From an uncultured Prevotellaceae bacterium (lineage in GTDB: Bacteria > Bacteroidota > Bacteroidia > Bacteroidales > Muribaculaceae): a stretch of DNA of 50,532 nt. The notes beneath the pieces were generated by a model. It was not told the DNA's origin. It made no database searches and was given only the letters and a program-made list of their open reading frames with translations. Numbering within the stretch: position 1 is the first letter of the stretch; the number at the start of each line of letters is the position of its first letter. A program made the position numbers and the translations under genes. Below are positions 25,695-50,532 of the stretch, one piece after another. The stretch lies in assembly GCA_900320245.1 (NCBI GenBank), contig ONRP01000019.1, forward strand, positions 1 through 50,532, given 5' to 3'.

Positions 25695-25974
25695 CTGCAT
25701 TTTTTCTCGCTGCGTTGCATCACCGCTTTTAAATATCACATTTATTTTATAGCAGTTAGCCACAACCCCGTTTTAAAATGCGTAATTTGTTTATGATATG
25801 AAAGACGAAATGAAATGCTTCAATCTATCAAAAAGTATCCCTGTTTTGACTATGATAATTGTCTGAAAATCAAAAAACTTAGCGTCTTTGCGACTTAGCG
25901 TGACATTTGGTGGCGGGTGTTTTGGCTGAATAGTTACCGCAGGGTTTTGGGTCATCTGGAATACGGTTCCTAAG

Positions 25975-26194
25975 AAAATATAGGATTTTTCTTGGCATTG
26001 TGTTCGGCTTGCACTCCCGTTGGCTTCGCCGAAGGTAGGCTGCGCCTCAACAATGCTCAAGAAAATTGGGATTTTTCTTGGCATTGTGTTCGGCTTGCAC
26101 TACCGTTGGCTTCGCCGAAGGTAGGCTGCGCCTCAACAATGCTCAAGAAAATTGGGATTTTTCTTGGCATTGTGTTCGGCTTGCACTACCTTTG
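25975..26194 (+). repeat. Tandem 86-bp promoter-bearing repeat, two full units plus a partial third
   Basis: Units begin at 25991, 26077 and 26163 (each opening CTTGGCATTGTGTTCGGCTTGCAC), a period of exactly 86. The first two are nearly identical and the third diverges after the -7 box. Each unit has TTG, a 20-base spacer and a -7-like box: TCCCGTTG, TACCGTTG and finally TACCTTTG. The junctions carry complementary arms (ACAATGCTCAAGAAAA with TTTTTCTTGGCATTGT, one bulge) able to form a hairpin. The inner part pairs CTACC with GGTAG around the -7 box. The rest of the 25683-26211 gap holds the DUF5686 promoter, an AT-rich stretch and a short direct repeat around 25880-25901 (CTTAGCGT twice), with no gene. 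Confidence 0.85.
26164..26194 (+). promoter_or_regulatory. Promoter of the LptF/G-type permease within the repeat
   Basis: TTG at 26164-26166, a 20-base spacer and TACCTTTG at 26187-26194 form a complete Bacteroidetes promoter in the last, partial repeat unit. The inferred start near 26201 gives a leader of only about 11 nt. Confidence 0.7.
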
Positions 26195-26211: not shown

Positions 26212-28167
26212 ATGCTGATGATAAAAGTCAAGAGGCTATACACGTTCATGCTGTCCAGGTTCCTGCCCAGGTTCCTGATGACTTTCTGCATCTGTCTGTT
26301 TATCGTGATGATGCAGTTCTTGTGGCGCTATATCGATGAACTGGTAGGCAAGGGACTCTCTATCGGGGTAGTTGCCGAACTGTTCTTCTATGCCGCACTG
26401 TCGATGGTGCCCTTGGCACTGCCCCTCAGCATCTTGCTTGCTGCGTTGATGACTTTCGGCGACTTGGGCGAGCACGTCGAATTGACAGCGCTCAAATCGG
26501 CCGGCATCTCGCTCACCACCATCATGAAGCCTCTGGCCATCCTGATGGCCATTGTAGCAGTGGGGGCATTCTTCTTCCAGAATAATGTTCTGCCCAAGTC
26601 ACAGGTCAAGATGTGGACACTGCTCTTCTCGATGCGGCAGACCTCCCCCACCCTTGACATCCCCGAAGGAGCCGTCTACAGCCAAATCCCAGGCTACAAC
26701 ATCTATGTCAAGCGCAAGGATAAGGAGCGCGACATGCTGTATCAGATGCTTATCTACGACGTGTCAAACGGCACCATGTATCCGCGCATCGTGGCTGCCG
26801 ACTCGGGTCGCTTGACCATGACCGAGGATAAACGGCACCTGGTGCTCACGCTCTACAAGGGTTCGTGGTATGAGGAAATGAAGGGTGGCGGTGGCGTCAG
26901 CGGCATGAGTGGAGAACTATATCGTCGTGAGACCTTCCACGACAAGGAAATCATGATTCCCTATGATGCCAATTTCACCCGTATGGATGACGAGACGATG
27001 CGTTCGCAATACATCGGCAAGGATATCACCGAACTGCGGCAGACCATCGACTCGGTGCGCCTGAAGGTGGACTCGGCGGCCACCTTGGTGCTGGCCCGTA
27101 TGCGCACCAATCCCGAGTGCGGCGTGCCGCTGCAACGCACTGTGGTCAAGGACGGACACACCGCATTGGAACCCGTCGCCGAGGTGAAACTCGACAAGCC
27201 GCTCGACTTGGACAAAATGATTAAGGAACGGCCCGCCTTCGAGCAGCAGGAAATCTACAACCAGGCTATCATGCGCGCCACTAATGCCATGCAGGACCAG
27301 CAATTCCAGGGCTATACCATCAACGACGACAATTTCATCATACGTCGCCACCAGATTGAGTTGATGAAGAAATTCACCCTGTCGCTGGCATGCCTCATCT
27401 TTTTCTTTATTGGTGCGCCGCTCGGTGCCATCATCCGCAAGGGCGGCCTGGGAATGCCCATTGTGGTGTCGGTGCTGCTGTTCATCGTGTATTACATCAT
27501 CGACAATTCGGGCTATAAACTGGCGCGCGACGGTCGTTGGCACGTGTGGCAGGGCATTTGGCTCAGTTCGGCAGTGTTGCTGCCGCTGGGCATCTTCCTC
27601 ACCCGCAAGGCTGTCAACGATTCGGCAGTGTTTAACCCCGACGCCTGGCTGGCTGTGCTGAGGCGCTTCACTGGATTGCATCAGACACGCAAACTCGTTG
27701 CCAAAGAAGTGGTTATCAACGAAGTGGAAACTGATACCGCCATCGCCAAGATTGAAGACCTGAAGAACGACTGTCAGCAATGGCTCGACAGCCACCCTGG
27801 CCGTCAACGCTATATCGATTACTGGCGTCAGGGATATGACAAGCCCGCCATCAAGGAACTGGCTCAAAAAGTTGACTCCGTGGTTGAGTATCTCTCCAAC
27901 TCGCGTGACCAGATGGTGCTCAACAAGGCCATGGACTTCCCCTTCATCCGCCAGTTGCTCACCTACCAGCCTGTGACCAACAGGAATGTGGGAACCGCTG
28001 TGGCAGCCTTGTTCCCCATCGGCTTGCCCGTATGGCTCTTGGGCTTGCATCATCAGCATAACCTGAAGCGCGACATCCGCCTCACCATCAAGACGTGTGA
28101 CCAACTCGTGGCCATCTTCAACGGTGAATACAGCCGTGAGATGGAGTACAGTGACACCGTGTCGTGA
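26212..28167 (+). CDS. LptF/LptG family permease (YjgP/YjgQ)
   Basis: A 651-residue inner-membrane protein of the family that, with LptB and LptC, moves lipopolysaccharide from the inner membrane to the periplasmic bridge. Three N-terminal membrane segments (about residues 20-125) carry the typical VMMQFLWRYIDELVGKGLS start and the LTALKSAGIS coupling region. A periplasmic domain with an inserted region follows, then membrane segments at about 385-475 (FFFIGAPLGAIIRKGGLG). A further C-terminal part of some 170 residues, with a hydrophobic segment near 610, is absent from the E. coli proteins, which are about 360 residues. A second Met at 26218 is an alternative start. Transcription probably begins in the adjoining repeat. 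Confidence 0.88.
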   Translation: MLMIKVKRLYTFMLSRFLPRFLMTFCICLFIVMMQFLWRYIDELVGKGLSIGVVAELFFYAALSMVPLALPLSILLAALMTFGDLGEHVELTALKSAGISLTTIMKPLAILMAIVAVGAFFFQNNVLPKSQVKMWTLLFSMRQTSPTLDIPEGAVYSQIPGYNIYVKRKDKERDMLYQMLIYDVSNGTMYPRIVAADSGRLTMTEDKRHLVLTLYKGSWYEEMKGGGGVSGMSGELYRRETFHDKEIMIPYDANFTRMDDETMRSQYIGKDITELRQTIDSVRLKVDSAATLVLARMRTNPECGVPLQRTVVKDGHTALEPVAEVKLDKPLDLDKMIKERPAFEQQEIYNQAIMRATNAMQDQQFQGYTINDDNFIIRRHQIELMKKFTLSLACLIFFFIGAPLGAIIRKGGLGMPIVVSVLLFIVYYIIDNSGYKLARDGRWHVWQGIWLSSAVLLPLGIFLTRKAVNDSAVFNPDAWLAVLRRFTGLHQTRKLVAKEVVINEVETDTAIAKIEDLKNDCQQWLDSHPGRQRYIDYWRQGYDKPAIKELAQKVDSVVEYLSNSRDQMVLNKAMDFPFIRQLLTYQPVTNRNVGTAVAALFPIGLPVWLLGLHHQHNLKRDIRLTIKTCDQLVAIFNGEYSREMEYSDTVS

Positions 28168-28221: not shown

Positions 28222-29436
28222 ATGGACGAAATCAAACTCAATACTATTGACGAGGCAGTTGAGCAACTGCAACGTGGCGAATTTGTCATCGTTGTCGATG
28301 ACGAGGACCGCGAGAACGAGGGCGACTTTATCATTGCCGCCGAGAAGATCACCCCCGAGAAGGTCAACTTCATGATGCGCGAGGGGCGCGGCGTGCTGTG
28401 TGCCCCTGTCACCGTTGAGCGCTGCCACGAGTTGGAACTCAATATGCAGGTCGACGACAACACGTCGATGCTTGGCACCCCATTCACCGTGACTGTCGAC
28501 CTGTTGGACGGCTGCACTACAGGTGTGTCGATGCACGATCGTGCAATGACCATCAGGGCTCTTGCCAATCCTCATAGCAAACCTCAGGACTTCGGCCGTC
28601 CGGGCCACATCAACCCCTTGAGGGCCGTCGACAAGGGCGTCCTCAAGCGTGCGGGACACACCGAGGCCTCCATCGACCTGATGCGCATCGCCGGCCTCTA
28701 CCCTGCCGCTGCACTCATCGAGATCATCAACCCCGACGGCACCATGGCACGCCTGCCACAACTCGTCGAGGTGGCCAAGAAATTCAATATGCCCATCATT
28801 ACCATCAAGGACCTTATCGCTTACCGCCTGCGTACCGAGAAGGTCGTCGAGGTGGGCGACGAGGTGGAACTGCCCACGCAGTACGGCCACTTCAAACTCA
28901 TTCCCTTCCGCCAAATCAACAACGGCTTGGAGCACATTGCCCTCATAAAGGGCCAGTGGCGCCCCGACGAGCCCATCCTGGTGCGTGTCCACTCCTCGTG
29001 TGCCACCGGCGACATCTTCGGCTCGATGCGTTGCGAGTGCGGCGAACAACTGCACATGGCGATGCAGATGATTGAGAAGGAAGGCAAAGGCGTGCTCGTC
29101 TATATGAACCAGGAGGGGCGCGGCATTGGCCTGATGAACAAAATCAAGGCTTACAAACTTCAGGAGGATGGCTATGACACCGTCGATGCCAATGTGCATC
29201 TGGGCTTCAAGCCCGACGAACGCGACTACGGCGTCGGGGCCAACATCCTGCGAATCCTGGGCGTCACCAAGATGCGGCTGATGACCAACAACCCCGTCAA
29301 ACGCGTCGGTCTCGAGAGTTACGGCCTTGAGGTCGTCGAGAATGTGCCCATCGAGGTCACTCCTAACCGATACAACGAGTTCTACATGCACACCAAGAAG
29401 GCCCGTATGGGACATGACCTGCACAAGGTCGATTGA
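28222..29436 (+). CDS. ribBA: Bifunctional 3,4-dihydroxy-2-butanone 4-phosphate synthase / GTP cyclohydrolase II
   Basis: This 404-residue enzyme makes both riboflavin precursors: from ribulose 5-phosphate (N-terminal half) and from GTP (C-terminal half). The RibB domain shows [24 protein letters not shown] and a [11 protein letters not shown] motif. The RibA domain, from about residue 205, shows the zinc site [17 protein letters not shown] (three Cys) and NQEGRGIGL with the catalytic Arg region. It is 54 bp downstream of the permease on the same strand, with no clear promoter or FMN riboswitch in the gap, so cotranscription is likely. No other rib genes are nearby. Confidence 0.96.
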
Positions 29437-29453
29437 GCATCGGGTCGCTCGCA

Positions 29454-29482
29454 GTTTAAAGGTTAAAGGTTAAAGTTTAAAG
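29454..29482. repeat. Short heptad repeat between ribBA and the HD gene
   Basis: Four seven-base units (GTTTAAA, GGTTAAA, GGTTAAA, GTTTAAA) follow the word GCTCGCA and precede GAAGCATC. The same order, GCTCGCA then heptads then GAGGCATC, occurs at 48495-48540, so the two are copies of one element. Confidence 0.6.
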
Positions 29483-29521
29483 AAGCATCAGCACTCCTTA
29501 GTTCGTAAATTCAAGACAGTG

Positions 29522-34392: not shown

Positions 34393-34412
34393 AATACACA
34401 GCCAATAATTAT

Positions 34413-34460
34413 CCCGAAGATTTCAGCGTCGATATCGACGCTGAAATCTTCGGGTTTTTT
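34413..34460. terminator. Palindromic terminator between clpC and tamL
   Basis: A perfect 42-base palindrome (arms of 21 at 34413-34433 and 34434-34454) is followed by six T on the plus strand. It ends the clpC transcript and lies 18 bp past the convergent tamL stop, so it may act in both directions. Confidence 0.92.
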
Positions 34461-34477
34461 ATGTGATGTTTCTATGT

Positions 34478-48480: not shown

Positions 48481-48570
48481 CTTTTATGCTCGCTGCGCTC
48501 GCAGTTTAGAGTTTAGGGTTTAGAGTATAGAGAGGCATCCGCTTTTATGCTCGCTGTGCTCGCTGTTTAC
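48481..48570. repeat. Duplicated GCTCGCTG-type element with heptad repeats
   Basis: The word CTTTTATGCTCGCTG starts at 48481 and again at 48542, a 61-base period. The first copy continues with heptad units GTTTAGA, GTTTAGG, GTTTAGA, GTATAGA and then GAGGCATC, the same order as at 29446-29488. The second copy stops after GTTTACA. It fills the gap between divergent dnaK and the response regulator. The rest of the 48321-48655 gap holds the two dnaK regulatory sites and the regulator's weak -7 box. Confidence 0.6.
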
Positions 48571-48633
48571 AGGATTCTGATGCTTGAGAATGATTTTGTT
48601 ACAAATAATGGCGATGGATTCTGAAAAAAGAAT

Positions 48634-50265: not shown

Positions 50266-50330
50266 CAAGACTGGCAATTGGCTGTGGCTGGCGATTCCTA
50301 ACGAAAGTCTGATAAATAATAGACCATTTG

Positions 50331-50532
50331 TTTGGCATTCCGCTCGGCTTGCACTAACGTTGGATTTGCCGAAGATAGGCTGCGCCTCAACAATGCTCAA
50401 GAAAAATGGTTTTTTTCTTGGCATTGTCTTTGGCTTGCACTATCTTTGCCTGCAGCGAAGATAGGCGGCGCCTTGGGATAAAAAACAAAAAACTTTGTTT
50501 TTCGTTTTGTTCTCCGCTTGGCTTGCACTAAC
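50331..50532 (+). repeat. Second array of the promoter-bearing repeat, running to the window edge
   Basis: Units start at 50332 and 50418 (period 86), with a third whose GGCTTGCAC word begins at 50520, 88 bases after the matching word of unit two. They are the same family as 25975-26194. Unit one has the altered box TAACGTTG, unit two the intact TATCTTTG, and unit three is cut by the window end at TAAC. Unit two also has GCGAAGATAG pairing with CTATCTTTGC around the -7 box. The repeat lies downstream of the histidine kinase. Confidence 0.8.
50418..50448 (+). promoter_or_regulatory. Intact promoter in the right-hand repeat array
   Basis: TTG at 50418-50420, a 20-base spacer and TATCTTTG at 50441-50448 form a full Bacteroidetes promoter reading out of the window. 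Which gene it serves cannot be seen. Confidence 0.6.

Follow-up and report, generated by a model that had tools for sequence, protein, structure and literature searches.

The common view is that promoters evolve chiefly through point mutation. The putative mobile promoters of Matus-Garcia et al. 2012 are reportedly homologous promoter regions dispersed before unrelated genes, as is the unit described here, and they are said to be a class defined statistically, with no set unit, no set target and no rule for arrays. Correia repeat enclosed elements, a MITE of Neisseria, are like our unit in being short intergenic inverted-repeat structures that can have promoter sequence at their ends and in this way drive neighbouring genes, according to the parts of their descriptions used here (PMC2649163, PMC10969869). 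BrickBuilt, a MITE-like element of Porphyromonas gingivalis, shares with the unit the order Bacteroidales, the intergenic position and the presence of internal repeats; its source, in the portion drawn upon, reports outward promoter activity shown by a reporter in E. coli (PMC4596501). REP, BIME and REPIN sequences likewise place numerous short palindromes between the genes of a genome, at times as arrays; as summarized in the sources they are 20-40 bp long, carry a GTAG or CGTC tag and are linked to RAYT transposases (PMC3733652, PMC2817692). Invertible promoters associated with inverted repeats occur in the same order, and those are described as flipping between the repeats (PMC8748976). The promoter consensus given for Bacteroidetes in the part of the source used is TAnnTTTG at -7 and TTTG or TTG near -33 (PMC7366714). 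Such promoters belong to the housekeeping factor sigma-ABfr, and their transcripts begin a few bases downstream of the box.

The window analysed here is a whole stretch of 50,532 nucleotides from an uncultured Prevotellaceae bacterium (contig ONRP01000019.1 of assembly GCA_900320245.1). Tandem Repeats Finder reports in it an array of period 86 with 2.6 copies and 97% matches (25972-26194), in which direct reading gives three promoter-like copies, each made of TTG, exactly 20 bases and then a box; this is the 86-bp repeat of TTG-spacer-box units that the first-pass annotation had described. Its further observation, that the box is broken in the two distal copies (TCCCGTTG and TACCGTTG) and intact in the copy nearest the permease gene (TACCTTTG), holds as well (Table 1). 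Seventeen bases lie between the last TACCTTTG and the ATG of the LptF_LptG gene, which is probably driven by the terminal copy of the array. The orthologues of lptF were tried and rejected as a record of insertion, the closest relative found having only 79% DNA identity, in that gene; the profile matches at 4 of 30 lptF loci, and arrays with an intact terminal box occur only in the genome of the window (G000) and in G016. Given this distance and the few arrays, the lptF locus lends weak support.

Table 1. Coordinates of the two promoter arrays in the window and of the gene next to the first
Feature	Position	Strand	Basis
86-bp tandem array, 5' of lptF/lptG-type gene	25972..26194	+	Tandem Repeats Finder
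First, partial copy, left arm missing: TTG 25992-25994, 20-base spacer, broken box TCCCGTTG 26015-26022	25992..26022	+	direct reading
Second unit, complete hairpin: TTG 26078-26080, broken box TACCGTTG 26101-26108	26030..26108	+	covariance model E 2.8e-19; fold z -4.70
Junction hairpin of units 2/3, CTACCgTTGGC-TTC-GCCGAAGGTAG	26098..26124	+	fold z -3.16
Third, gene-proximal unit: left arm CGAAGGTAG 26116-26124, -33 TTG 26164-26166, intact box TACCTTTG 26187-26194	26116..26194	+	covariance model E 1.9e-21; fold z -6.03
LptF/LptG-family permease gene	26212..28167	+	Pfam PF03739 LptF_LptG, E 4.6e-70
First copy (partial) of right-edge array, with broken box TAACGTTG 50355-50362	50327..50362	+	repeat analysis, direct reading
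Right-edge array, second unit, box TATCTTTG 50441-50448, intact yet interior (exception)	50370..50448	+	covariance model E 4.3e-21
Right-edge array, third unit, cut by window end; 25 N next in contig	50456..50532	+	covariance model, direct reading

A second array, at the right edge of the window, had been read as ending with a gene-proximal intact copy, TAACGTTG first and then TATCTTTG. Both boxes are present, but the TATCTTTG copy is interior, and the array was wrongly taken to end there. It goes on beyond the window, with a further unit, an assembly gap of 25 N (G000:C23:50533-50557) and then the terminal unit at contig positions 50563-50641, with box TATCTTTG; the gene downstream reads as a uridine kinase. 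The interior intact TATCTTTG, which has the 25-N gap nearby, either departs from the rule or reflects a fault of the assembly. A tRNA scan of the window found none. At 34398-34469 stands a 36-nt inverted repeat, its arms 83% complementary and without spacer, followed by TTTTTT; it looks like a strong terminator, with an apparently perfect inner part. A small repeat (CTCGCTGCGCTCGCAGTTTA with TTTAAAG/TTTAGAG runs) occurs twice, at 29431-29492 and 48481-48572.

Aligned over 29 terminal units of the window's own genome, the unit is an imperfect palindrome of about 80 bp (range 68-90 nt), whose left arm begins CGAAGATAGGCKGCGCCTC... and whose right arm ends ...CTCGGCTTGCAC-TATCTTTG, with a top between them that varies and is rich in A or T. 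Both promoter signals, -33 and -7, lie in the right arm (TTG-N20-TAnnTTTG), which by the known consensus is a predicted sigma-ABfr-type promoter, and the left arm is complementary to it in sequence, the left end pairing with the -7 box itself. Occurrence and fold are far beyond chance: CGGCTTGCACTANCNTTG with at most two mismatches is found at 55 sites in the genome and its reversed pattern at 1, and the terminal unit folds as single-stranded DNA with z -6.0. In the 29-unit alignment 92.0% of cells pair under the given structure (78.5% when shuffled); 12 base pairs change on both sides, with 89 double-change cells against 24.3 shuffled, and sliding the pairing partner abolishes this covariation signal. 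Fold and covariation uphold the hairpin that the first-pass annotation had proposed. One-sided G-U intermediates are rare and the double changes are nearly always Watson-Crick, a rarity that suits complementarity at the DNA level better than selection at the RNA level; template-switch correction of the quasi-palindrome could be another source of the covariation. The complementarity reaches into the box: the two free bases of the terminal box have their complement in the left arm of 120 of 183 units, where 55.4 are expected and the maximum of 5000 shuffles is 71. Among upstream units the left arm matches the terminal box of its own array in 55 of 105 (25.2 expected) and its own upstream box in 31 of 105 (14.2 expected). 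Since the base preceding AAnnTAG is A in just 20 of 183 terminal units, the box that the left arm would offer on the reverse strand is mostly incomplete. In one array (L030; G000:C28 around 113059) the first unit apparently stands between two divergent genes, and there the left arm has the sequence of a full reverse promoter, CAAAGATAGTGCAAG.

At E<=0.01 a covariance model of the unit matches 76 times in the own genome; it matches 9 to 94 times per genome in 22 of the 25 genus genomes, the own included (none in G004, G015 and G021). Sixteen genomes of the order's other families were also scanned, and just 1 of them has matches. A pattern scan with one genome per species returned at least 117 stretches, and among the matches listed (80) the titles name Prevotella, Alistipes, Parabacteroides, Muribaculaceae, Tannerella, Barnesiella, Bacteroides and others. 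Similar units are present in records of many other Bacteroidales. Two records among the matches listed, titled Microvirga and Proteobacteria, have no hairpin in the context listed with them.

Orthologous promoters occur with and without the unit. Before udk it is present in 14 of 50 genomes, with the terminal box intact in all 14 and 65-68 nt before the start codon, and 27 of the 36 genomes without it have TAnnTTTG at 65-69 nt, which in the close subclade holds for 24 of 25; TATGTTTG overlaps in several udk leaders, and the distances were counted with the overlap accounted for. At the TPP riboswitch, where the anchor is present at 48 of 50 loci, the unit occurs in 12 of 48 with its box 17-18 nt from the anchor in all 12, and a box stands at 17-18 nt in 28 of the 36 loci without a unit. 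The same box distance with and without a unit indicates that the right-hand box of the unit occupies, in sequence terms, the native -7 position at both promoters. One filled and empty pair is clean, in that G098 equals the unit-free G070 plus 86 bp at the box, with CTATCTTTG and CTACCTTTG as their bounds. A 9-bp CTAnCTTTG, a possible target-site duplication, flanks both sides of the G098 unit, but the two copies differ at one free base, and the box also lies within the palindrome. When 30 unit-bearing loci were compared with unit-free orthologues, six alignments of native promoters (five independent) came above the score cut, and in the five alignable cases the unit lies 3' of the old native box. 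That box is broken in three of them: it reads TATCGTTG in G006 and TCACTTTG in G071, where the relatives have TACCTTTG, and TGCCATTG in G059, where the relative has TAATTTTG and the alignment ends seven bases before the box end. It is still intact in G074 (TAACTTTG) and in G047 with G098 (TATCTTTG; two species, one case). Where no further copy was recognised to the left, an exact TAnnTTTG occurs within 42 nt in 24 of 167 flanks; among control stretches it occurs in 3 of 162. Immediately 5' of the unit, both in arrays and in part of the single copies, there is a second box or box-like sequence with a short linker, often a hairpin, which to judge by its letters is the box of the previous unit or the old native one.

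The mobility that the first-pass annotation had suggested is supported by the presence and absence of the unit at orthologous promoters together with the one clean 86-bp filled and empty site; the search for a mover covered Y1 transposases and identified none. Those proteins (PF01797) were rejected for this role, their counts over the 25 genus genomes being uncorrelated with those of the element (Spearman 0.03, p 0.90; RAYT pooled with other Y1 proteins). In its dispersed copies and its presence and absence at udk and the TPP riboswitch, the unit resembles a MITE. Its left and right arms are inverted repeats, and the parent elements considered for them were the Y1 transposases. At the udk promoter two related species (L387 in G052, L388 in G051) have the terminal unit in common and differ in their upstream junctions (TATCTTTG and TATCGTTC), with the linkers swapped, as if array segments had been exchanged.

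The profile scan of the collected loci, with a profile made from 29 terminal units of the own genome, gave 196 distinct loci, 90 of them arrays, mostly of two or three copies; the lptF loci other than L115 were excluded. The tally of -7 boxes dropped two copies, one with an N and one under the core cut, and retained the doubtful arrays L160, L101 and L248 and the first copy of L038. By sequence, the gene-proximal box is normally the only intact one in a tandem array: TAnnTTTG is present in the terminal box of 87 of 90 arrays and in 18 of 115 upstream boxes. The tally over all arrays concerns the -7 box, and the -33 TTG was read in the window copies. In the own genome the terminal and upstream counts are 22/22 and 2/29, in the genus 21/22 and 4/27, and in the species-level set, among the matches listed, 44/46 and 12/59; array copies and related species are non-independent, so Fisher values overstate the contrast. 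The base 3' of the box is C or T in 184 of 186 intact terminal boxes, and A or G in 6 of the 18 intact upstream boxes (first family). At base N of CGGCTTGCACTANCNTTG, over at least 117 loci, copies with a further copy downstream have T 9 times and G 5 times, and copies without one have T 110 times and G and A once each, these last being the Microvirga and Proteobacteria records. Most upstream matches keep T in this count because the pattern omits most other broken forms; the broken junctions include GTTG, TTTA, TTTC, TACTTTG, TACTCTG and CACC. Three arrays with 66-bp spacing break the rule, their upstream boxes being intact (L216 of Hoylesella buccalis, L260 and L266), and in L216 the last box is broken.

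A second family of hairpin promoters, first met in TPP promoters, has the core CTCGCTTATTCG and a left arm AAGTTACTC.., and it repeats both the architecture of the first family and its T-to-G rule. It was seen in G079, G003, G011, G044, G104 and others (L398, L444, L445), and a search for CTCGCTTATTCGTAANNTTG in 101 genus genomes gave 132 sites in 11 genomes. The last copy of the array has T in 27 of 27 cases, and copies with another one 40-200 bp downstream have G 28, A 1 and T 3 times (n=32), the three upstream T boxes reading TTTGG. Five G sites without a downstream pattern match were inspected: one has a downstream copy with a variant core and TAACTTTG, two are cut by contig ends inside or just past the next unit, and two resemble decayed relics without a live copy. 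The promoter cassette with only its gene-proximal -7 box intact, as first proposed for the window, is therefore strongly supported in the genome, in the genus and in the second family; the random placement of intact and altered boxes with respect to gene position, against which the proposal was to be checked, is contradicted, the exceptions being the 18 intact upstream boxes. A third type of hairpin (..CTTGCACAAnATTTGG) is nested inside units at L445 (about 340-480) and L034 (G000:C40:88137-88271). It seemingly joins its host unit at the -33 TTTG and not at the -7 box, and in the second-family array L445 it brings one unit to a length of 145 bp.

The best explanation, to which we assign a probability of roughly 0.58, is that these are dispersed palindromic promoter-replacement cassettes of about 80 bp, which leave the old -7 box upstream, usually dead, and supply a new live one. 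A unit would be copied into a -7 box, and the box would thereby be duplicated; the upstream copy, attached to the linker of the unit, would then be a -7 box that is dead or on its way to being so, and the downstream copy would join the -33 element and spacer of the unit and become the sole start. Further insertions could lengthen an array, as could unequal exchange between right arms. Since homology goes no further than the box, such exchange would leave the leader-linked live box last and copy the dead box with its linker into the interior junctions. Selection against extra upstream starts, whose mRNAs would begin with a hairpin of about 70 nt, plausibly removes intact upstream boxes. Stacking, then, seems to relocate the live promoter and not to add a second one, and the upstream copies are probably switched off. 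Promoter activity, the order of events, selection and the route of copying are all things that we infer from comparison of the letters. The 18 of 115 intact upstream boxes and the native box left intact in two of the five cases count against this explanation, and it is weakened further by the folding of the junctions and by the free bases of the box. A short linker, often folding, bridges each upstream box to the next left arm, and 55 of 103 distinct junctions have a fold z < -2 (mononucleotide shuffles). This level is reached by 12 of 16 junctions with intact boxes (median -3.5) and by 43 of 86 in the broken classes (TAnnTTT[ACT] 9/16, TAnnGTT 13/23, other 21/47); the stem is thus kept at some broken-box junctions and the best folding is at the intact ones, and selection may possibly act on the junction stem instead of the box.

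The free bases bear also on the strongest competing account, which we regard as unlikely: that upstream boxes are under no selection, that unequal exchange in the right arms keeps the leader-linked box last, and that the founding junction happened to be dead. Exchange of this kind is what one would read from the right arms, identical over 24 nt and up to the box in 54 of 115 upstream-terminal pairs, from neighbouring interior boxes, which share one 8-mer in 16 of 25 pairs taken from arrays with at least three copies, and from the swapped junctions at udk. In 12 arrays the 68-nt units show no difference at all, yet every one of the 12 has a broken upstream box; single-step mutation does not yield several differences within a box beside 68 identical flanking bases. 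The box stands out in the 68 pairs with at least 22 of 24 arm positions identical: differences affect 1.0% of sites in the arm, 27.9% at the conserved positions of the box and 44.9% at the free ones, the two box rates being ungapped counts inflated by one-base deletions. The free positions thus differ as much as the conserved ones, which makes an inherited foreign junction likelier than point mutations of a copied live box. Breakage is also non-random. In the 36 of these pairs whose boxes agree at 6 of 8 positions or more, it is chiefly the first T of TTTG (16) and the final G (17) that have changed, the T mostly to G; many independent losses of function would be less expected to give this than an inherited junction. 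Breakage takes many forms, and the idea that insertion always cuts the box at the same point was given up for that reason. The same variety tells against exchange without selection, which requires founding junctions that were dead at most loci and in many forms, and the second family reached the same outcome with a different core. As sources of the rule itself, an inherited dead junction and selection that disfavours upstream starts cannot be told apart.

Selection without any inherited junction is a rather improbable account. Tandem duplication would yield identical live promoters, and point mutations of the upstream box would then be selected because upstream starts are harmful. The upstream box is indeed broken in 48 of the 54 pairs with identical right arms, the broken forms vary between loci, and native boxes that are intact in unit-free relatives are broken in three of five cases with a unit. 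What this account does not give is multiple changes per box with zero in 68 flanking bases, nor the finding that T-to-G changes are strongly over-represented at the first T of TTTG. Pairs with an intact upstream box are also not younger than those with a broken one (Mann-Whitney p 0.72), and the ratio of intact to one-off boxes shows no clear difference with and without the right arm (18:47 and 24:50, p 0.58).

We hold it still less probable that the unit acts as RNA, its hairpin terminating, processing or stabilising read-through transcripts with the promoter incidental. The strong fold, the covariation and the second hairpin at many junctions would all suit such a role, but the double changes are of the Watson-Crick kind with very few one-sided G-U steps, no Rfam family matches the window at the gathering score, and an RNA function provides no obvious reason for the -7 rule. 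That the upstream copies are decoys which bind sigma factor or RNA polymerase without starting, the alternative offered in the first-pass annotation, is very unlikely: none of the observations speaks for it, the -33 element, spacer and most of the box that they retain are explained by recent duplication, and the copies are mostly two or three.

If promoter replacement is the correct reading, promoters appear to be swapped in cassette form, and at the native -7 position, by bacteria throughout an abundant order, with tens of cassettes per genome in many species of the genus and a simple, readable rule for which copy is live. This would give a direct handle on promoter turnover and on the tolerance of upstream starts, and it would make live promoters readable from sequence in uncultured Bacteroidales. 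It also carries a warning for promoter prediction, as most upstream array copies look like promoters and probably are not. More tentatively, and as a wider claim that we would not yet favour, promoter turnover of this kind could be order-wide and transposase-free: palindromic units flanked by -7 boxes might be copied between promoters by exchange at the 8-9-bp box, the left end bringing a dead half-box and the right end a complete promoter. Each event would silence the resident promoter and install a new one in place without moving the start, and several hairpin families may have converged on this or share it, one perhaps targeting the -33 box.

In the open-licence literature we found relatives of these cassettes and no description of this unit family; a search there for the unit's own letters gave only a chickpea reference-gene paper. 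Membership among REP and REPIN sequences is not supported: in place of a tagged palindrome of 20-40 bp we find a promoter-bearing unit of 68-90 nt whose arm end varies as AAnnTAG with the box, and whose numbers do not follow those of Y1 transposases. Unlike the invertible promoters of Bacteroidales, the unit has its promoter within the repeat, and inversion of a palindrome would presumably change little. The Correia elements belong to another phylum and are set apart by description, not by sequence. The unit differs from them in being one long palindrome, in that the -7 box is itself the target and is duplicated, in its tandem stacking and in a displaced box that is usually broken. BrickBuilt, likewise set apart by description, has a 23-nt minisatellite trapped in the element, and the portion of its report used here describes neither -7 targeting nor a dead-box rule (PMC4596501). 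The closest known kinds are the promoter-bearing MITEs, Correia and BrickBuilt, and the mobile promoters, and the unit works like them.
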